Source: Pyrinomonadaceae bacterium (GTDB taxonomy: Bacteria > Acidobacteriota > Blastocatellia > Pyrinomonadales > Pyrinomonadaceae). Taken from it: DNA of 64,000 nucleotides. The stretch spans positions 620,001-684,000 of the forward strand of contig JAIBCB010000003.1 of the NCBI GenBank assembly GCA_019694355.1, read 5' to 3'. The translations under genes were made by a program, and so were the position numbers. Below are positions 2,363 to 63,539 of the stretch, piece by piece (position 1 is the stretch's first letter; each line of letters starts with the position of its first letter). The notes under the pieces are model-generated. The model did not search any database, had not been told where the DNA came from, and was given only the letters and a program-made list of their open reading frames with translations.

Positions 2363-2700
2363 AGGCAGAAACCCGACCTGTTGGGAGGGTGCAGAGAGGC
2401 AGAAACCCGACCTGTTGGGAGGGTGCAAAAGAGGCAGAAACCCGACCTGTTGGGAGGGTGCAAAGAGGCAGAAAAACCCGACCTGTTGGGAGGGTGCAAA
2501 GAGGCAGAAACCCGACCTGTTGGGAGGGTGCAAAGAGGCAGAAAAACCCGACCTGTTGGGAGGGTGCAAAAGAGGCAGAAACCCGACCTGTTGGGAGGGT
2601 GCAAAAGAGGCAGAAACCCGACCTGTTGGGAGGGTGCAAAGAGGCAGAAACCCGACCTGTTGGGAGGGTGCAAAGGGTGCAAAGAGGCAGAAGGGTGCAA
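2363..2700 (+). repeat. tandem array of nine 34-37 bp hairpin repeats
   Basis: Nine copies of a unit containing CCCGACCTGTTGGGAGGG followed by TGCAAAG and AGGCAGAAA lie head to tail, with a degenerate tenth copy at 2685-2700. Length differences come from one or two extra A residues in the linkers. Each unit can fold into an imperfect stem: in the reverse strand ACCC-T-CC pairs with GG-TC-GGGT around a CAACA loop. The array starts at the stop of the gene at 1424 and ends a few bases before the transposase start. The units are almost identical, which points to recent expansion. Confidence 0.92.
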
Positions 2701-2705
2701 GAAAT

Positions 2706-3224
2706 ATGACCGACTTCGACTGGGACGACAACGATGGCCCGCTAGCCTACCTGATCACTTTTCGCACTTACGGCACGTGGCTGCATGGCGACGATCGCTA
2801 TTCAGTGGACAGGCATGGCAAGAACATTTACGGAACGTCCAGAGTCCTCCCGAGTAGAAACTTGAACGCAGCGATGCGGGAGAATCAAGCATCGGCCAGC
2901 TTTCTTCTTGACGGCCCATGCCGTGGCGTTGTCGAGCGGGCGATCCGCGAAGTTTGCAGTCTTCGTGGATACCCTCTGCATGCGATCAATATCCGCACGA
3001 ATCACGCACATTCGGTCGTAGCTTCAGCACGTAAGCCTGAGATAGTTATGAACGCGTTCAAATCGAATGCGACAAAAGAGTTGCGAAGAGCAGGCCTCGT
3101 TTCAGTTGAACAGCAGGTGTGGGCCCGCGGCGGCAGCACACGATACCTGTGGAAGCCAAACCACGTCGAGAGCGCGATCGAATACGTGCTTAATGGGCAA
3201 GGGGATGACCTGCCAAATTTTTAG
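2706..3224 (+). CDS. REP-associated tyrosine transposase (RAYT, Y1_Tnp family)
   Basis: The product has 172 residues and belongs to the IS200/Y1 (HUH) transposase superfamily, COG1943-like. It starts with LAYLITFRTYGTWLHGD, typical of this group. The metal-binding HUH motif is His100-Ala-His102 in RTNHAHS. The presumed nucleophile is Tyr160 in EYVLNGQG, preceded by the conserved GSTRYLWKP. Such enzymes cut single-stranded palindromic REP DNA. The start is the ATG at 2706, right after the repeat array; the open frame continues upstream through the array, but that part is only translated repeat. There is no clear Shine-Dalgarno sequence. The product is full length and looks intact. Confidence 0.9.
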   Translation: MTDFDWDDNDGPLAYLITFRTYGTWLHGDDRYSVDRHGKNIYGTSRVLPSRNLNAAMRENQASASFLLDGPCRGVVERAIREVCSLRGYPLHAINIRTNHAHSVVASARKPEIVMNAFKSNATKELRRAGLVSVEQQVWARGGSTRYLWKPNHVESAIEYVLNGQGDDLPNF

Positions 3225-3316: not shown

Positions 3317-4645
3317 ATGACCTACGAAATAAACGAAACTCACGACCCGAACTTAAAAAGCTGGGTCGAATCTGCGAACGATCCGAACTCGGATTTTCCG
3401 ATACAGAATCTGCCGTTCTGCATGTTCTGGTCCGATGATGACGAAGATCAGCCGCATTTGGCGGTCGCGATCGGCGATAAGCTCTTCGATCTCTATGGTG
3501 CGATCGGGGCGGGCGTTTTTGGTGAGCGGTTCGAAGATATCGACCTTGAAGACGGTGTTCTGGATCCGACATTTATCGCGAATTTCGTCGGTCCGACGGC
3601 CTTGTCCGAGCTTCGTATCGCGGCGATGGACGCCCTCTCTGATTCGGCCGATCAAAGACTCCAAAATGCGGCAGCGGAACATCTTGTCCCTGCGAGCGGG
3701 GCTGATCTCGAGATCCCATTCACGATCGGCGACTACACCGACTTCTACTGCTCGATCTATCACGCTACCAATGTCGGTTCGATGTTTCGCCCCGATAATC
3801 CGCTGATGCCGAACTACAAATACATACCGGTCGGATATCATGGCCGTGCGTCAAGCATCGTTTTGAGCGGAACGGACATCAAACGTCCTCATGGACAAAG
3901 TCGGAGTGGCTCCGAGGGGCCGCCGGCCTTCGGGCCTTCGAAGAATCTCGATTACGAGATGGAGCTGGGATTCTTTGTAGGAAAAGGCAATGATCTAAGC
4001 ACGCCGATCGGCATCGGCGACGCAGAAAAGCATATTTTTGGCGTCTGTCTCGTGAACGATTGGTCGGCACGTGATGTTCAGGGCTGGGAATATCAGCCGT
4101 TGGGCCCGTTCCTGGCAAAGAATTTCGCAACGAGCATTTCGCCGTTCGTCGTAACGATGGAGGCCTTGGCTCCGTTCAGGACGGCGGCATTTGAACGCGA
4201 TACAGGCGATCCGCAGCCGCTCGAGTATTTGAGCGATGAGCAGAATCGCAAATTCGGCGGGCTGGACATTAACCTTGAGGTTTACATTCAGACCGAGAAG
4301 ATGCGGTCGGAGAATATCGAGCCATTTCGCCTGAGCCGCTCGAACACAAAGGACCTTTATTGGACGATCGGGCAGATGCTGACGCACCACGCATCGAACG
4401 GCTGTAATTTACAGGTTGGCGATCTGCTTGCGACCGGTACGGTAAGCGGCAAGGAAAAAGACGAACGCGGCTGCCTTCTCGAATTGACATGGCGAGGCAA
4501 AGATCCGATCGATCTGCCGTCCGGCGAGCAGCGGCGATTTCTGGAAGATGGAGACGAGATCATTATGAAGGGCTTTTGCGAGCGGGAAGGTTTCCGACGC
4601 ATCGGGCTCGGCGAATGTCGCGGGCGCATCATACCCGCGAATTGA
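3317..4645 (+). CDS. fahA: fumarylacetoacetase
   Basis: This is the last step of tyrosine/phenylalanine catabolism, hydrolysing fumarylacetoacetate to fumarate and acetoacetate in the cytoplasm. The 442-residue length fits the family. The N-terminal SH3-like domain is followed by DYTDFY (139-144), the YHATNVG segment with the candidate catalytic His149, and GYHGRASS (173-180). The metal-binding acidic stretch YEMELGFFVGKGN comes next, then the C-terminal LLATGTVSGKE. The ATG at 3317 follows the repeat zone directly and lacks a strong ribosome site. Homogentisate dioxygenase is not in the window. Confidence 0.95.
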   Translation: MTYEINETHDPNLKSWVESANDPNSDFPIQNLPFCMFWSDDDEDQPHLAVAIGDKLFDLYGAIGAGVFGERFEDIDLEDGVLDPTFIANFVGPTALSELRIAAMDALSDSADQRLQNAAAEHLVPASGADLEIPFTIGDYTDFYCSIYHATNVGSMFRPDNPLMPNYKYIPVGYHGRASSIVLSGTDIKRPHGQSRSGSEGPPAFGPSKNLDYEMELGFFVGKGNDLSTPIGIGDAEKHIFGVCLVNDWSARDVQGWEYQPLGPFLAKNFATSISPFVVTMEALAPFRTAAFERDTGDPQPLEYLSDEQNRKFGGLDINLEVYIQTEKMRSENIEPFRLSRSNTKDLYWTIGQMLTHHASNGCNLQVGDLLATGTVSGKEKDERGCLLELTWRGKDPIDLPSGEQRRFLEDGDEIIMKGFCEREGFRRIGLGECRGRIIPAN

Positions 4646-5292: not shown

Positions 5293-5895
5293 GTGGAGTT
5301 TGACGCATTCATCTTGATCGGCGGGCGGTCTTCCCGATTTGGTTCGGACAAGGCGCTCGCCGATCTCGGTTCGGTCACTCTGGCCGAAAATGCCGCCCGA
5401 TTGCTCGGCGATATTCCGGAATGCAAAGATATTACATTTGTGGCGGCGAATGAAACGCAGTTTGCAGGGGCAGAAATGCCCCAAAACGTCATCGCAGACA
5501 AAAATCCGGGCCGTGGCTCGTGGAGCGGCTTTCAAACGGCTCTATCGGCCTCTAAACGCGAAATGACGTTCGTCCTCGCCTGCGACCTGCCGCTTTTGAG
5601 CAAAAACCTTCTTGAAAGGCTCGTAAAAGCAGCCTCTGACGCAAATGCCATCGCGGCCGTGCCGCTCCAGCCTGATGGCCGTCTTCAGCCGCTCTGCGGC
5701 ATGTACCGAACAATTCCCGTGTTAAAAGCTGTCGAAGAGACCATTGGCACAGCAGAACATTTGCCTTCGCTGATCTCTTTTGTCCGCGAACTCGGATCAA
5801 CGATAGTAGGACCATCGGAAAATACCTCGCCGGACGAATTCCTCAATGTGAACACCCGCGAAGACCTCGAAAAAGCTAAGTTTCTCCGCTCGTAA
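5293..5895 (+). CDS. mobA: molybdenum cofactor guanylyltransferase (MobA-like)
   Basis: MobA attaches GMP to molybdopterin to make the dinucleotide cofactor. The 200-residue product begins at a GTG (5293), eight bases after yceI. It has the nucleotide-binding loop LIGGRSSRFGSDKAL (about 7-21), the metal-binding CDLPLL, PLCGMYR and the C-terminal FLNVNTREDLEKAK. The usual GPLAG segment reads NPGRGSWSG here, a mild departure. No other molybdopterin genes are nearby, so a related nucleotidyltransferase cannot be fully excluded. Confidence 0.85.
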   Translation: MEFDAFILIGGRSSRFGSDKALADLGSVTLAENAARLLGDIPECKDITFVAANETQFAGAEMPQNVIADKNPGRGSWSGFQTALSASKREMTFVLACDLPLLSKNLLERLVKAASDANAIAAVPLQPDGRLQPLCGMYRTIPVLKAVEETIGTAEHLPSLISFVRELGSTIVGPSENTSPDEFLNVNTREDLEKAKFLRS

Positions 5896-5929
5896 TTCCA
5901 CCCCGGCAAGTTGTAAAATAGAACTAACG

Positions 5930-7339
5930 GTGATCGAGGACCATTTCGACAAACTTCATGAAGAATGCGGCATCTTCGGCCTTTTTGGGCACGAAGAGGC
6001 GGCAACGCTGACGCAGCTCGGGCTCTTTGCCCTTCAGCATCGCGGGCAGGAGGCCTGCGGCATTGTCTCGACCGACGGAGAGGATTTCTTTGAACATCGG
6101 GCAAACGGCCTTGTGGCCGACGTGCTGATCGCTTCGGTCCTTGCGAAACTACATGGTTCGGCGGCCATCGGCCACACACGTTATTCCACAGCAGGAAAGA
6201 ACACGATCAAGGAAGTGCAGCCGTTCTCGGTCACGTGTCAGCACGGCAAGATCGCGGTCTGCCACAACGGAAATCTGCCATTTGCTGACGCACGCCGCCG
6301 CGAACTCGAACGCGACGGTGCGATATTCTCCTCAACGTCCGATACTGAAACGATCCTGCACGGAATTGCCCGGGCGTCCGGTTCGACCGCTCTTGATGCG
6401 ATACGTGAGGTCGTGCGCGTGACGGAAGGCGCGTTCTCGCTGCTGTTTCTCACGCCCGAAGCGCTGATAGCGGTTCGCGATCCGTATGGATTTCGGCCGC
6501 TGGTCCTCGGTAAATATAAGGACGCGTGGTGCGTTGCATCCGAAACCTGTGCATTCGACCTGATCGACGCCGAATACCTGCGCGAGATCGCTCCGGGTGA
6601 GATGCTCGTCGTTACAAAGGACGGCATCGATTCGAGCTTTCCCTTTGAGGAAAAGAAACACGCAGTTTGCACGTTCGAACACGTTTATTTCTCGCGACCT
6701 GATTCGATCATCTTCGGAAAGTCCGTTAACGAATCCCGCCATAAGATGGGCAAACAGCTTGCCCTCGAACACGCTGTCGAAGCCGACATCGTCGTGCCCG
6801 TGCCCGATTCGGGCGTTGCGGCAGCTATTGGATATTCGGCTCAGTCGGGGATAAATTATCGACAGGCGATCATCCGAAACCACTATGTCGGCCGCACGTT
6901 CATCGAGCCGTCGCAATCGATACGTTCATTCGGCGTGCGTCTAAAACTCAACCCGATCAAGGATCTCATCCAAGGGCGACGTGTCGTACTCGTTGATGAT
7001 TCGATCGTTCGCGGCACCACGTCGAAGAAGATCGTGCAGATGGTTCGCGATGCCGGAGCAAGCGAGGTTCATATGCGCATCTCGTGTCCGCCGACCGCTC
7101 ATTCCTGTTATTACGGCGTTGATACGCCGCATCGCAAAGACCTCATCGCCTCGCGTATGAGCATCGAAGAGACCTGCCGATATATCGGCGCCGATACGCT
7201 CGGCTATCTCTCGCTCGAAGGAATGCTCAAGGCCGTCGGCCTCGATGAAGACTCGTCCTGCACCGCCTGCTGGACAGGCAAATACCCAACCCTCATCGCC
7301 AACGGCGAAAAAAGGCTAAAGGCTAAAGGCTCCCCGTAA
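5930..7339 (+). CDS. purF: amidophosphoribosyltransferase
   Basis: PurF carries out the first committed step of purine synthesis (PRPP + glutamine to phosphoribosylamine). The 469-residue product starts at a GTG at 5930 with a short propeptide before the nucleophile Cys13 (HEECGIFG). The glutaminase domain has QHRGQEACGI and GHTRYST. The phosphoribosyltransferase motif VVLVDDSIVRGTT lies at about 345-358. Cysteines in VCTFEH, SCPPTAHSC and SSCTACW match the iron-sulfur-binding Bacillus-type enzyme. No Shine-Dalgarno site is evident. No other pur genes are adjacent. Confidence 0.97.
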   Translation: MIEDHFDKLHEECGIFGLFGHEEAATLTQLGLFALQHRGQEACGIVSTDGEDFFEHRANGLVADVLIASVLAKLHGSAAIGHTRYSTAGKNTIKEVQPFSVTCQHGKIAVCHNGNLPFADARRRELERDGAIFSSTSDTETILHGIARASGSTALDAIREVVRVTEGAFSLLFLTPEALIAVRDPYGFRPLVLGKYKDAWCVASETCAFDLIDAEYLREIAPGEMLVVTKDGIDSSFPFEEKKHAVCTFEHVYFSRPDSIIFGKSVNESRHKMGKQLALEHAVEADIVVPVPDSGVAAAIGYSAQSGINYRQAIIRNHYVGRTFIEPSQSIRSFGVRLKLNPIKDLIQGRRVVLVDDSIVRGTTSKKIVQMVRDAGASEVHMRISCPPTAHSCYYGVDTPHRKDLIASRMSIEETCRYIGADTLGYLSLEGMLKAVGLDEDSSCTACWTGKYPTLIANGEKRLKAKGSP

Positions 7340-7636: not shown

Positions 7637-8033
7637 GCCGATCGTTCTGGACTCATGGGCAATCTTGGCTTATTTCAACGGTGAGGCGCCCGCCGCCGAC
7701 ATCGCCAACGTCATCTCTGACGCAAAGGAGAATGGAATTCCGCTGTTGATGTCAGTCGTCAACGTCGGGGAAGTGTGGTACATAATCGCTCGCCGGATAT
7801 CTCCCTCCGACGCTGACGAAGCCTTGGATCTGCTCGATGAGTTCGGGATCAGGTTCATCGAAGTCGACATAGACCTTGCTAGAGTCGCCGCTAGTTTCAA
7901 GGTAAGTGGCAATATCTCATACGCAGACTGCTTTGCAGCGGCACTTGCCGAGAAACGCAATGCCATTCTTATAACCGGCGATCGAGAATTTACGCAGTTT
8001 GAGGAGCGGATCAAGATCCATTTTATGGGCTGA
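7623..8033 (+). CDS. vapC: VapC-type PIN-domain toxin
   Basis: This 136-residue PIN-domain ribonuclease has all acidic active-site positions: Asp10 (VLDSWA), Glu50 (VVNVGEVWY), Asp102 (SYADCFAAALA) and Asp120 (LITGDREF). The ATG at 7623 lies inside the end of the antitoxin gene, the usual coupled arrangement. VapC toxins cleave tRNA or rRNA when free of antitoxin. The target of this one cannot be read from sequence. It looks intact. Confidence 0.94.
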   Translation: MKDDKPIVLDSWAILAYFNGEAPAADIANVISDAKENGIPLLMSVVNVGEVWYIIARRISPSDADEALDLLDEFGIRFIEVDIDLARVAASFKVSGNISYADCFAAALAEKRNAILITGDREFTQFEERIKIHFMG

Positions 8034-34495: not shown

Positions 34496-36820
34496 ATGTT
34501 CTTTAGATCTCTCTGCGTTCTAGCCGTTACAACTCTATTTTTTGCGGGCACAGCTTCGGCAAAGTCGGAGTATTTTCGCCTGCCTTCCGAACCGCTCATC
34601 CGCATCGGGCTTGCGACCAACGCGTCAAGCGTTTCGATCACGACGAGCGACAGTTCGCTTGTCGCCTTCAGCCCGGACGAGGCGAGTCGCCTACTCGCGT
34701 CTAATCGCGTTTCGATCTCGGCGAGGGCATATAGTCCGCCGGAGATCGAGCAATATCGCATTGAGTTCCAGAATTTGCCGTCCCAAATGGACGCGAACTC
34801 GCTTGCCGACGACATTCGCGAGGCTACGGGCGAGTCCGCTATTGCGAGCATCGATGTCGAAAAGAACACATGGCGTGTCTGGGTCGGCGGCATACAGGCG
34901 ACCGAAGAGGACGCGCTTGCTCTCAAGCAGAAGCTCGCCGACAAAGATTTTGATGACGGCGTGGTCGTCGTCGAAAAGAAAGAGGTGATCTCGCCCGAAG
35001 CCGTCGCTCTTTCACGGCAGGTTCGTGATGCGAAGAAAAGCGAGGTCCGCAGCCTCGTTCGTTCGACGGGTTCCGCAAAGCTCGCTCCGGGCGAAACGGT
35101 CGATCCGAACCTTCGCGAAGTGATCGTCAGCGGCGCGTCCGAAGAATCTAAATTCTCATCGCTAAAGAGCGTTGCCTTCGGTTCGCTCAACGAACGCACG
35201 ACGCCTGTGCGGCTCAACGGCAAGGCATATCGCGGAAAGATCGAGGTCTTTGTGAACGCATCGGGCAGGCTCTCTGTCGTCAACGTCGTGCCGCTCGAAG
35301 ATTACCTTCTCGGCGTCGTCCCGAGCGAACTCAGTTTGCCGCAGCTCGAAGCGCAAAAAGCACAGGCCGTCGCGGCCCGCACATATGCGATCGCAAATAT
35401 CGGCGGTTACGGCACGAAAGGCTTCGATATGGTGCCGACCGTCTATTCGCAGGTTTACAAAGGCGTCTCGATCGAGACGGCAATGGGCACGCGAGCCGTT
35501 CGAGAAACTCGCGGCATCGTCGCAACCTATGACGGAAAGCCAATAATGGCGTACTTCACATCGACTTGCGGCGGACGCACCGAGGACGGCAAGAATATTT
35601 TCGACAAGGACGAGCCTTATCTAAAGGGCGTCGAATGTTCGCTCGAAGGCCGCCGGCAGTTCGACCCTTTCACGATCCGCACTTCGCGAAAACCGGCAAA
35701 ATTGCGAGATGCCGGCCATCTTGAACTCGCGCGCTTTATGTCGCGGCTCGCATCGAACGGATTCTATCTCTCGACCGCCGAAATGACGGACGATTGGTTC
35801 GACGCCGTGCCGAACGAGAACGAGATGTCGAACTGGTTGAATCAGATAGCGACGCGTCTCGGCAAGCCATTCCCGAACGTAACGCGAGAGACCGCAAGGC
35901 CGCTCGAACTTTCAACGGCACTCGCAAAACTTTTTTACGAACCGCGTACGAACGACACGCTGCTATCGGATTCGGACGTTTTCTATCAGCTCGGATTCGA
36001 TGATGCCGCCGAGGTGCCAAAAGAAAAGCGTGCCGACCTCGCCGCTTTGCTCCGCGATGGTTATTTTCGACTGCACCCGGACTTGACGCTAAAGCCTGCA
36101 AAGCCTTTCACACGTACCGACTTTCTCGAGCTGATCCGCCAGATCTATACGAAGAAAAACTGGATGCCCGGCCTGCAAAAGGGGACTGCGAAACCGACGA
36201 CGGACGGCAAACTCGTCATCGGTTCAGGGCGAAGTGCGAAGACGCTCGCCGTACGGCCCGATGTGTTCCTTTTCCGCCAGTTCGGCGACACGATGTATCC
36301 CGTGCGTGAGGCCGCTCTTGTCGGCGGCGAGGACGTCGCATTTCAGACCGACGCAGCAGGCGATGTTGTCTATCTCGAAGTTCAGCCGACATCATCGCCG
36401 ACCGCGGCAGAGAATATGTCTCCTTTCACGAATTGGAATAAGACGGTTTCGGCCTCTGCCCTCAACGCACGGCTCTCGCGATACGTTCGCAACATCGGCA
36501 CACTTCTGGACGTTAACATCAAAAAGGTCGGGTATTCGCGTCGCCCGATCGAGATCGAGATCGTCGGTTCGAACGGCATCAAGACGCTTTCAGGCGGCAA
36601 GATTCGCTCCGCTCTTCGCCTGCCCGAACAGCTTTTTGTGATGAATAAACGCTACGGCAGCGGCGTCGCCGTCGCAAGCTACACATTCACCGGCCGCGGC
36701 TGGGGCCACGGCGTCGGAATGTGCCAATACGGCGCCTACGGAATGGCAAAAATGGGCGTCAAATACGACGAGATCATCAAACACTACTACACCGGCGTTG
36801 CCCTGACCGAGGCGTACTGA
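34496..36820 (+). CDS. SpoIID/LytB-domain peptidoglycan-associated protein
   Basis: The 774-residue protein starts at ATG 34496 (signal peptide MFFRSLCVLAVTTLFF..AGTASA). An N-terminal SPOR-like or beta region (about 25-200) leads to the SpoIID domain (about 235-380): RGKIEVFVNASGRLSVVN, VPLEDYLLGVVPSELS, AQAVAARTYAIAN, AYFTSTCGGRTEDG. It ends with the paired motif GRGWGHGVGMCQYGAYGMA (about 739-757). SpoIID proteins are lytic transglycosylases or amidase partners acting on denuded glycan. A long spacer separates the two SpoIID motifs. It appears to head an operon running to 41315. Confidence 0.92.
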   Translation: MFFRSLCVLAVTTLFFAGTASAKSEYFRLPSEPLIRIGLATNASSVSITTSDSSLVAFSPDEASRLLASNRVSISARAYSPPEIEQYRIEFQNLPSQMDANSLADDIREATGESAIASIDVEKNTWRVWVGGIQATEEDALALKQKLADKDFDDGVVVVEKKEVISPEAVALSRQVRDAKKSEVRSLVRSTGSAKLAPGETVDPNLREVIVSGASEESKFSSLKSVAFGSLNERTTPVRLNGKAYRGKIEVFVNASGRLSVVNVVPLEDYLLGVVPSELSLPQLEAQKAQAVAARTYAIANIGGYGTKGFDMVPTVYSQVYKGVSIETAMGTRAVRETRGIVATYDGKPIMAYFTSTCGGRTEDGKNIFDKDEPYLKGVECSLEGRRQFDPFTIRTSRKPAKLRDAGHLELARFMSRLASNGFYLSTAEMTDDWFDAVPNENEMSNWLNQIATRLGKPFPNVTRETARPLELSTALAKLFYEPRTNDTLLSDSDVFYQLGFDDAAEVPKEKRADLAALLRDGYFRLHPDLTLKPAKPFTRTDFLELIRQIYTKKNWMPGLQKGTAKPTTDGKLVIGSGRSAKTLAVRPDVFLFRQFGDTMYPVREAALVGGEDVAFQTDAAGDVVYLEVQPTSSPTAAENMSPFTNWNKTVSASALNARLSRYVRNIGTLLDVNIKKVGYSRRPIEIEIVGSNGIKTLSGGKIRSALRLPEQLFVMNKRYGSGVAVASYTFTGRGWGHGVGMCQYGAYGMAKMGVKYDEIIKHYYTGVALTEAY

Positions 36821-36833
36821 TCTGCCGCTTGCT

Positions 36834-37796
36834 ATGTACAAATTGCTCCCAAGACTTTTCCTATCTGCAGCAATAGTTCTGCTTGCTGCTTCGGTCAGCT
36901 TTGCTCAATCCACCGCTGCGGCGAAGGTCGGGTCGGAGACGGCGAAGGGCGGTTTTCGCAACGAAGATGTCATTCGCGATAAGTTCAACGCGTGGAAGAC
37001 GGACGTGGATGCGCAGGCGTGGCTTCGCGAGATGGGTTATGATCCCGCGAAGGTCGCCTCGCTCGTTGCGAGTAAACCGCACGGCGAGAAGGCCGATGTC
37101 GAAGTTCGGATCTCGCTGCTCCAGTCAGAACCGCCTGCGTTAGCGGGCGGTCAGTCTTGCAATTCAAAAGCGATCCCGCAGAGCCGCAAAGACGCGGAGG
37201 AAGAGGCTCGCCCGCAGAGCCGCACGTCAGAAGCACCAGCGTTAGCCGGCGGTCAGAGTGGCGAGTCCGAGGTCGAGTGCCGCGAGGGCATCTCGATCAA
37301 GTTGGTCTCGAGCAATCAGGGCTTCAACCAGATCGATAAACGCTGGCTCGCGCATTACGCCAGGATGTGGAAGATGCCTGCGGATGTCGTCGAGGCGCTG
37401 AAGCTTTTTGTGGGCGAGACTCCGCCGACAAAGCCCGGCCGTTCGAAAGATCGTATGTTCCTCGACGAGATCGATCCGAAGCTGAAAGATGCCGTCATTA
37501 AGTTCTTTACCGACAACAAAGCGACGATCATCTCCGACCTTTTTGCGGGCGACGGCGAACATAGTGCGGGTTGGGTGATGGTCGCGTTCAAACCGTCGGA
37601 AAAGACCGAGTGGGTGATCCGTTCATCGAAACGAACGGTCGAGTTTTACAGCGAAGGCGAAGTTGGCCTAACACGCGGCGGCAACCTGAAGATCGGCCGC
37701 ATCACGATGCAGCGAAAGGGCGGCGACGCTGGCCGCGAGACGGCAAAAATGCTGCAGTTCAAGATCAATCCCGTCGAACTTTTTAACGCAAAATGA
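36834..37796 (+). CDS. secreted protein carrying in-frame REP insertions
   Basis: The 320-residue product has a signal peptide (1-24, ending SFAQ), an N-terminal helical domain with DAQAWLREMGYDPAKV, and a C-terminal domain with RKTVEFYSEGEVGL-like strands. Residues about 97-141 hold two copies of an 11-residue peptide (SEPPALAGGQS and SEAPALAGGQS) 34 residues apart. These are translations of the 31-bp REP unit (see 37124-37256). The rest shows no named family. It starts 13 bp after the SpoIID gene. Confidence 0.85.
   Translation: MYKLLPRLFLSAAIVLLAASVSFAQSTAAAKVGSETAKGGFRNEDVIRDKFNAWKTDVDAQAWLREMGYDPAKVASLVASKPHGEKADVEVRISLLQSEPPALAGGQSCNSKAIPQSRKDAEEEARPQSRTSEAPALAGGQSGESEVECREGISIKLVSSNQGFNQIDKRWLAHYARMWKMPADVVEALKLFVGETPPTKPGRSKDRMFLDEIDPKLKDAVIKFFTDNKATIISDLFAGDGEHSAGWVMVAFKPSEKTEWVIRSSKRTVEFYSEGEVGLTRGGNLKIGRITMQRKGGDAGRETAKMLQFKINPVELFNAK
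37124..37256 (-). repeat. two REP palindromes embedded in coding sequence
   Basis: On the minus strand, 37124-37154 reads CTGACCGCCCGCTA then ACGCAGGCGGTTCTGAC. That is one mismatch from the first unit of the 63260 array over 31 bp. A more diverged copy lies at 37226-37256. Between them is a CGCAGAG/CGCAAAG stretch like the CTTTGCG hairpin family at 62150-62460. The reading frame is kept across the whole block. The distance between the copies is 102 bp, a multiple of three. Confidence 0.9.
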
Positions 37797-46162: not shown

Positions 46163-46197
46163 TTTAAGTGTAGCTGTCAGCTATCAGCTAAAAGCTA

Positions 46198-47745
46198 TCA
46201 GCCAACGGATATTATTTCTCGAACCTTATTTCGGTCACAGGTCTGCTGTTCACCGGTTCGCATGTTTTTGAGGGTTACGGTGCCGTCGGCCAATTCGCTT
46301 TCGCCGAGGACGCAGACGAACGGGACGCGGATGGAATCGGCATATTTTATTTGCTTGCCGAGTTTGTCCGCTTCGGGATAGACGGTTACGCGAAGGCCTT
46401 GGCTGCGTAGTTCCGCAGCGAGCAGGAGCGATTCGGGTGCGGTTTCCTCGCTCCAGATCGTTATCATCACGTCGGCCGGTGTGGAATCGGCGATCTCGGG
46501 CGGGAACATTCCCCTCTCGTCCATTACGACGAGTATACGTTCGAGGCCGAGCGAAATACCGCATGCGGGAATTTGCTCTTTACCGAACATCCCGATCAGC
46601 CCGTCATAACGCCCGCCGCCGCCCAAACTTCCTGCAAGGTCAGGGACGTTTATCTCCATGATCGTCCCTGTATAGTACGAAAGGCCGCGTGCAAGAGTTG
46701 GATCGACCAGCACGCGAACTGAGGCCTCAGTGTCCGCATACAGAGTTCCAACTATCGAGGCAAGCTCTTTGGCTCCTTCAAAACCAGCCGGGTCTCCGTC
46801 TAGTTCTTTGTAGAGGTTCAAGAAAAAAGCTTGGTTTCGAACAGCGGCCTTCGCAACTTTTTCAAGATCAGCGTCGTGCTCCCGCGGGGGGGCAATTACT
46901 GTCATACTCTTGTTGCCCCAAGTTCTCTCAAAACCCGACTCAAACTTTTCCAAAAGCTTTAAGACGTTGGTTGCCGCAAGTTTCTCTTTGCCAGTTAGAG
47001 AGGATGAATCTGATTTCACGAGATGCTCAAGGGCATCTAATAATCTACGTGAAACATCAGTGGAAATGCCTTGGCCCGACAGTTCTTTCTCAACACCAGT
47101 CCGATGAATCTTGTCGATCTTATCTAAGATGACAATCGTATCAAGAACTTTCTCGTCCGGAATCCCGTATTTTCTCAGCAGGCCAAAAAGGGTGTTTCGA
47201 TGATTTACGCGAACGACAAAATCATCAAAGCCCAAACGAAGAAGTATCTTCGAAACTGCCGAGATCAGCTCAGCTTCGACAACGATCGAGGTGGAGCCAA
47301 TGCAGTCCACGTCGCATTGATAAAATTCGCGGTAGCGGCCTTTTGCCGGACGATCGGCACGCCAGACGGGTTGTATTTGATAGCGTTTGAAGAATTTCGG
47401 CAGCTCGTTCTTGTTGTTTGCGACGACGCGGGCGAGCGGCACTGTAAGATCGTAACGCAAAGCCAAGTCAGCGAGTTTCGAAGTTTCTTCATTTACTTCG
47501 TAACTTCGCAACTTCGTAACTTCGGCCAACTTCTCGCCGCGTTTGAGGATCTTGAACATCAATTGCCCGCCCTCTTCGCCGTATTTTCCGGTGAGGGTTT
47601 CGAGGTTCTCAAAGGCAGGCGTTTCGAGCGGTTCAAAGCCGTAACTCTCGTACACCTCTTTGATGATGCCGATCACGTACTCGCGTTTTCTTACATCGGC
47701 GGGCAGGAAATCGCGTGTCCCGCGTGCCGGATTCGTTGAGGCCAT
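46198..47745 (-). CDS. hisS: histidine-tRNA ligase, long form
   Basis: HisRS charges tRNA-His. The 515-residue protein is longer than the typical 420-residue bacterial form. It has motif 1 ARGTRDFLPAD, LRYDLTVPLAR, motif 2 FKRYQIQPVWRADRPAKGRYREFYQCDVD, the histidine A region ARGLSYYTGTIMEI, and motif 3 GISLGLERIL. Residues 75-84 (EVTKLRSYEV) are the translation of an 8-bp repeat that also lies at 1194-1391. The core at about 46690-47230 is 42-45 % GC in 60-bp blocks, against about 60 % in a sampled block of the flank, so it may have a separate origin. Enzyme motifs remain intact. Confidence 0.94.
   Translation of the reverse strand: MASTNPARGTRDFLPADVRKREYVIGIIKEVYESYGFEPLETPAFENLETLTGKYGEEGGQLMFKILKRGEKLAEVTKLRSYEVNEETSKLADLALRYDLTVPLARVVANNKNELPKFFKRYQIQPVWRADRPAKGRYREFYQCDVDCIGSTSIVVEAELISAVSKILLRLGFDDFVVRVNHRNTLFGLLRKYGIPDEKVLDTIVILDKIDKIHRTGVEKELSGQGISTDVSRRLLDALEHLVKSDSSSLTGKEKLAATNVLKLLEKFESGFERTWGNKSMTVIAPPREHDADLEKVAKAAVRNQAFFLNLYKELDGDPAGFEGAKELASIVGTLYADTEASVRVLVDPTLARGLSYYTGTIMEINVPDLAGSLGGGGRYDGLIGMFGKEQIPACGISLGLERILVVMDERGMFPPEIADSTPADVMITIWSEETAPESLLLAAELRSQGLRVTVYPEADKLGKQIKYADSIRVPFVCVLGESELADGTVTLKNMRTGEQQTCDRNKVREIISVG
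47494..47523 (-). repeat. 8-bp tandem repeat inside hisS
   Basis: Minus-strand GAAGTTACGAAGTTGC then GAAGTTACGAAGT gives three and a half copies of GTTRCGAA, in frame. The location is a loop that is variable in length in this HisRS branch, just before ALRYDLTVP. Confidence 0.85.
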
Positions 47746-63259: not shown

Positions 63260-63539
63260 CTGACCGCCCGCTCACGCAGGCGGTTCTGACAAGACCACCC
63301 GCTACCGCAGGTGGTACTGACAAGGCCGCCCGCTACCGCAGGTGGTACTGACTGCCCACTGCCCACTACCCGCTGGCTGCTCACGCAGGCGGTTCTGACA
63401 AGACCACTCGCTACCGCAGGTGGTACTGACAAGACCGCCCGGTCACGCAGGTGGTACTGACTGCCCACTGCTGACGGCTCACTGCTGACTGCTCACTGCC
63501 CATTGCCCGCTGGCCGCTGACGCAGGCGGTTCGGACAAG
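63260..63539 (+). repeat. tandem array of seven 31-bp REP-like palindromes
   Basis: Seven units with arms of the form CCGCCCGC and GCAGGYGG, each followed by TACTGACAAG or TTCTGACAAG, begin at about 63260, 63294, 63324, 63371, 63403, 63433 and 63508. Two blocks of ACTGCCC heptamers separate them. Single units occur at 8931, 11673, 37124 and 37226. Spacers are not unique, so this is not a CRISPR. Confidence 0.9.

Follow-up and report, generated by a model that had tools for sequence, protein, structure and literature searches.

Short palindromic repeats that are dispersed over the genome and sit in frame in unrelated protein genes, at sites where they are tolerated, are known from Rickettsia (RPE) and Wolbachia (WPE) (PMC10969869; PMC3767692). 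Such palindromes within protein genes have been described as peculiar to the Rickettsiales; Rickettsia orthologues carry the insert at the same locus, which could result either from inheritance or from a hot spot, a question not decided in that work (PMC3767692). Inverted repeats within functional protein genes have also been described for nematomorph mitochondria (PMC6649704). REP elements and REPINs, which together with RAYT form a further related system, are short palindromes, sometimes paired, that occur in genomes with many Y1 transposases and are typically extragenic. The short tandemly repeated repetitive (STRR) sequences of cyanobacteria are dispersed 7-bp tandem units that have also entered functional genes (RNase P RNA, tRNA-Leu intron). 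A literature search for tandem repeats in the Pyrinomonadaceae found no paper.

The locus described here lies in a window of 64,000 nt from a Pyrinomonadaceae bacterium, the genome of which is referred to as G000. On the minus strand of this window, ORF 46198-47745 encodes a histidyl-tRNA synthetase of 515 aa (hisS; Pfam tRNA-synt_His, E 9.6e-39, and HGTP_anticodon; PDB 6nhi, E 9e-107). The original prediction of tandem GTTRCGAA units inside this gene was confirmed by TRF, which reported a period of 8 with 3.8 copies at 47495-47524 (minus strand, 3.75 copies of the unit), as well as by a pattern search, which located two overlapping exact 16-mers (GTTRCGAAGTTRCGAA) at 47497-47520 of the minus strand. 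None of 100 dinucleotide shuffles matched these 16-mers, and the best lag-8 match in the hisS coding sequence reached 20 of 22 positions compared to a maximum of 15 in 300 codon shuffles. The array is real and far above chance, it leaves the hisS reading frame intact, and its codons had been read correctly as EVTKLRSYEV. Overlooked, on the other hand, was a right arm (GAAACTTCGAAACTC, 47473-47487, minus strand), in which the variant unit GTTTCGAA is present in inverted copies and which was recognized from the sequence and by DNA folding. Both arms combined make up a 19-residue loop of HisRS (residues 74-92, AEVTKLRSYEVNEETSKLA; 47470-47526, minus strand), delimited by comparison with the loops of related genomes, and its entire 57 nt fold as a hairpin (DNA folding, z = -4.0). 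The element is a hairpin rather than the plain tandem block that had been described.

The 24 bp originally assigned to a block of three units correspond neither to the array, which spans about 30 bp, nor to the net change relative to the plain loop of the genus, which amounts to +21 nt. A difference of 24 nt was found when hisS was aligned with that of the nearest relative, G003. The loop of G003 (AEVTKLRSPEVGEETLELRNIETSQLS) starts with the same codons as that of G000, encodes EVTKLRS by them, and has a longer right arm that makes it exactly 24 nt (8 codons, three units' worth) longer. The argument that three 8-bp units are needed to keep the frame survives solely for this difference, and the stretch is not encoded by unrelated codons in the relative, which would have spoken against the prediction. 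From comparison of the two copies, the in-frame change by three units probably represents shrinkage or growth of the hairpin and not its original insertion. GTTRCGAA in hisS is common only to G000 and G003 and may go back to one old inherited event. A plain 24-bp tandem insertion was ruled out by the inverted arm and by the net change of +21 or -24 nt, depending on the reference.

A genome search of G000 with a relaxed GTTRCGAA pattern yielded 57 two-unit matches at approximately 13 loci. The family is dispersed, as had been expected, and hisS is its sole genuine coding site in this genome; the remaining loci are intergenic, some of them in regions that look like the groES and rpsJ-rplC neighbourhoods, or adjoin a Y1 transposase remnant. 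The original idea that such repeats can seed in coding DNA is thus upheld for an RPE-like phenomenon that includes a hot spot (see below), and is not borne out by GTTRCGAA in G000 beyond this one gene. A large intergenic member lies downstream of ruvC (1192-1391; TRF; fold -60.7 kcal/mol), with tandem arms around a core of about 90 bp; its unit is identical to that in hisS, as predicted for the hairpin at 1194-1391. This core shares 85 of 90 positions with the syntenic element of G003 (L176, C3:750500-752500) in reverse orientation between collinear flanks, and was evidently inverted by way of the inverted arms.

HisRS loops, bounded by KRGEKL and DLALRYDLTVPLAR, were compared among 38 genomes, G000 and 37 further genomes of the same genus, which were examined by searches and in selected stretches. 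A plain 12-residue loop was present in 14 genomes, while 24, including G000, had an altered loop of 14-41 residues. The altered loops comprised at least nine different repeat types, as assigned by eye in draft genomes, a genus-wide pattern of many unrelated families that had not been seen in the original prediction. Besides GTTRCGAA in G000 and G003, these included GAGACRG heptads (G001, G011, G012, G016 and G034), AATCCGM heptads (G013, G020 and G061), GGATCGC (G024), GAGAGTC, GAGTCTN and related arrays (G036, G060, G014 and G063), AGTCTNGGA (G031 and G019), and REPhp, a 54-nt palindrome (GTTCAGAGTGCG...CGCACTCTGAAC) found in G009, G010, G018, G021 and G035. Altered loops without a clear repeat were present in G007 and G026, and the loop of a further genome, G023, was different again. 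Most inserts of at least 21 codons were hairpins in DNA folding (z about -3.6 to -6), with the exception of the diverged REPhp copy of G009 (z -2.0) and the insert of G007 (z -0.8); no hairpin was detected in the DNA of plain loops. The HisRS loop is a hot spot for such repeats. In named Acidobacteria related to the genus the loop is often shorter, e.g. GEHEKTGEADLAL, and the plain loop may itself be an old decayed insert, which would blur the distinction between insertion and replacement.

Occurrence in proteins other than HisRS was observed for REPhp, which at all coding sites found is in frame and always read as VQSA...RDESRTLN. These sites include IleRS (G015), Tgt and NadE (G009), M1 aminopeptidase (G009 and G010), SPP1-type portal proteins (G018 and two sites in G035), and two further ORFs (G010); NadE and the two G010 ORFs were recognized from sequence and not by family search. 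In alignments with solved structures, REPhp in Tgt and IleRS appeared as an extra loop that is absent from these structures. Palindromic, hairpin-forming elements in multiple dispersed copies are present in the genus, and for REPhp they lie in several unrelated proteins in one preferred frame, which GTTRCGAA in G000 alone does not. Two separate observations concern other genes of the window. The G003 orthologue (L185, ~7829-7897) of the gene at 5852-7336, presumably PurF from its sequence, has a 23-residue in-frame hairpin-repeat insert (CCCCTACTTACGAAGGAGGGGTGCCGCTTCAGCGGCGGGG) that is absent from the window copy. The gene at 36807-37793 contains a repeat-derived stretch absent from G003 and encodes PALAGGQS stretches similar to the translation of 31-bp repeats (CCGCTACCGCAGGTGGTACTGAC) located at 63262-63499; this may be a further repeat family with copies in coding DNA.

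We consider it likely that in-frame hairpin repeats have repeatedly landed in one loop of HisRS, in a manner resembling RPE and with a hot spot. Short palindromic repeats would be scattered over these genomes, and the window array would be the left arm of a hairpin element, dispersed in the genome and decayed in this copy, with direct units on one side and inverted units on the other. This element would have entered HisRS in frame, in a length-tolerant loop. Coding copies would survive where the frame stays open and the protein tolerates a longer loop; different lineages would independently have received different repeat families at the genus-wide hot spot, and the inserts would then shrink or grow by whole in-frame steps or be replaced. 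Like the Rickettsia palindromic elements, the elements would be selfish and non-autonomous, and selection would retain those copies that keep the frame open and lie in tolerant loops.

The distribution of loop types was analyzed on a HisRS tree from which the loop was left out. On this single-gene tree, in which 15 of 35 branches were well supported, the 12 loop labels required 23 changes compared to a mean of 22.9 for shuffled labels; well-supported branches alone forced five changes for REPhp, five for GAGACRG and three for AATCCGM. A scatter equal to that of shuffled labels would also be expected if loop alleles had been shuffled between species by short-tract homologous recombination, with few insertions. 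Moreover, a linker (CGTCRGAACG or close) is common to the REPhp copies in hisS and missing from most of the others, and the G009 hisS copy is nearer to the hisS copy of G010 than to the nadE copy of G009, so that the hisS copies may have a common source or have been exchanged laterally. However, REPhp occupies the same codon of hisS in five species, and its third codon positions were 0.88 identical within the element, dropping to 0.58 and 0.49 in the 60-codon flanks. In the ten codons directly outside, third-position identity between carriers was 0.51 and 0.43 compared to 0.47 and 0.40 for pairs of carriers and non-carriers. Identity is therefore at background within ten codons on either side, which leaves hardly any homologous flank, and no recombination tract around REPhp in hisS was found from the third-position identity of the flanks. 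Vertical inheritance of REPhp would require synonymous sites that are frozen exactly up to the element ends. In addition, the hisS copy of G018 is identical at 53 of 54 positions to the portal-gene copy of the same genome. Lateral exchange of loop alleles is consequently judged unlikely, and we infer independent insertion rather than exchange of very short tracts.

Repeat load bears on the same question. With the hisS copy excluded, the number of copies elsewhere in the genome predicted the type found in hisS for GTTRCGAA (P = 0.013), REPhp (P = 0.0006) and AATCCGM (P = 0.0003), while GAGACRG load was not significantly related to hisS type (P = 0.29); taken over all four families, the observed value was not attained in any of 20,000 simulations. 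REPhp alone accounted for up to 46 matches in one genome, using a search pattern derived from the hisS copy that gives no coding fraction among all copies. In three of these four cases hisS carries a repeat family with many copies in the rest of that genome. That the loop type follows the genome's own repeat load argues against lateral exchange. It also bears on a local origin, in which slippage and hairpin template switching would generate repeats de novo in a fast-evolving loop and family likeness would be incidental. Template switching has been proposed as a source of coding palindromes (PMC6649704), the short tandem units and complementary hairpin arms would fit, and the smallest altered loops (14-15 aa) could have formed in this way. 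Nevertheless, the units correspond to families that are dispersed over other parts of these genomes, and a near-identical 54-nt element is present in five hisS genes as well as in other proteins, making a purely local origin highly improbable.

A HisRS that accepts loops of different lengths is part of this reading. In an AlphaFold model of the window HisRS, which was confident overall (mean pLDDT 80.6), residues 62-100, including the loop, scored below 50, so that the loop was not placed. A second fast-evolving part of the protein comprises residues about 236-322 (46780-47040), with two 28-residue indels relative to G003 and a lack of alignment in most congeners. The loop appears to tolerate extra residues. 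On the other hand, the extreme turnover of this single loop in a housekeeping enzyme could mean that the loop contacts a toxin, a phage factor or a regulator, so that unusual sequences are favoured and repeats are just handy variation. This adaptive explanation is very unlikely in our assessment: plain loops are common (14 of 38), it is without a known partner, and the presence of REPhp in unrelated proteins is a better fit to tolerance.

As for the movement of the elements, we hypothesize that Y1/RAYT-type single-strand transposases are responsible. Y1 transposase genes are present in every genome of the genus. Three of the 14 Y1 hits in G000 are no more than 1.6 kb away from GTTRCGAA arrays (P = 0.001), among them a truncated Y1 gene 56 bp from one array, and in G017 and G021 a Y1 gene is located directly downstream of hisS. 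Across the genus, no significant correlation between Y1 count and repeat load was observed (rho 0.24, P = 0.13), and no cleavage site or target rule for element movement was found. A possible mobiliser type is represented in the window by a Y1 (IS200/RAYT-like) transposase-related gene at 2700-3224 (plus strand), whose PF01797 match is just under the cut-off (21.5 bits). It is preceded by nine 34-bp tandem repeats (array 2363-2675; whole region 2363-3224), and an inverted form of the repeat follows the gene near 3370. Directly downstream of the window hisS, beyond an AGCTATC array (46172-46202), lies a 23S rRNA intervening-sequence-type four-helix gene (PF05635; 45812-46162), in the place taken by the Y1 gene in G017 and G021. 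As an alternative to landing everywhere with subsequent selection, hairpins of unrelated sequence might be directed to the hisS loop by a single-strand mechanism that recognizes structure (Y1/HuH transposase or fold-back repair), which we regard as doubtful.

Compared to the described systems, the elements of the genus resemble RPE and WPE in being short, dispersed and palindromic and in occupying tolerated positions of unrelated protein genes without a shift of frame. They differ in size (54-84 nt, or hairpins with 7-9-bp tandem arms, versus 100-150 bp), in their host, which its nearest named relatives place in the Acidobacteriota, and in the recurrence of several unrelated families within a single loop of a single gene. 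RPE and WPE proper are defined by consensus homology and a Rickettsiales host, and membership is not claimed for the elements of the genus; their behaviour is RPE-like, but sequences, host and hot-spot turnover differ, and we do not class them as RPE. The STRR likewise are dispersed tandem units that enter functional genes, but the unit here is 8 bp with inverted arms and lies in a protein gene; the hisS array does not consist of heptameric direct tandem repeats, and heptamers occur in the loops of relatives and elsewhere in the genome. With REP and REPIN the elements share short, sometimes paired palindromes and genomes rich in Y1 transposases, but a GTAG/CGTC tag and cognate pairing have not been demonstrated for them. 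The coding palindromes of nematomorphs reach conserved regions and are kept perfect, whereas the elements of the genus lie in a length-variable loop and decay.

For this genus, which lies outside the Rickettsiales, 38 hisS alleles are available that include plain ones as well as at least nine types of insert, and in-frame copies are found in other proteins too. This set allows direct tests of rates, targeting, decay and protein tolerance, and it shows a route from non-coding repeats to new protein sequence.
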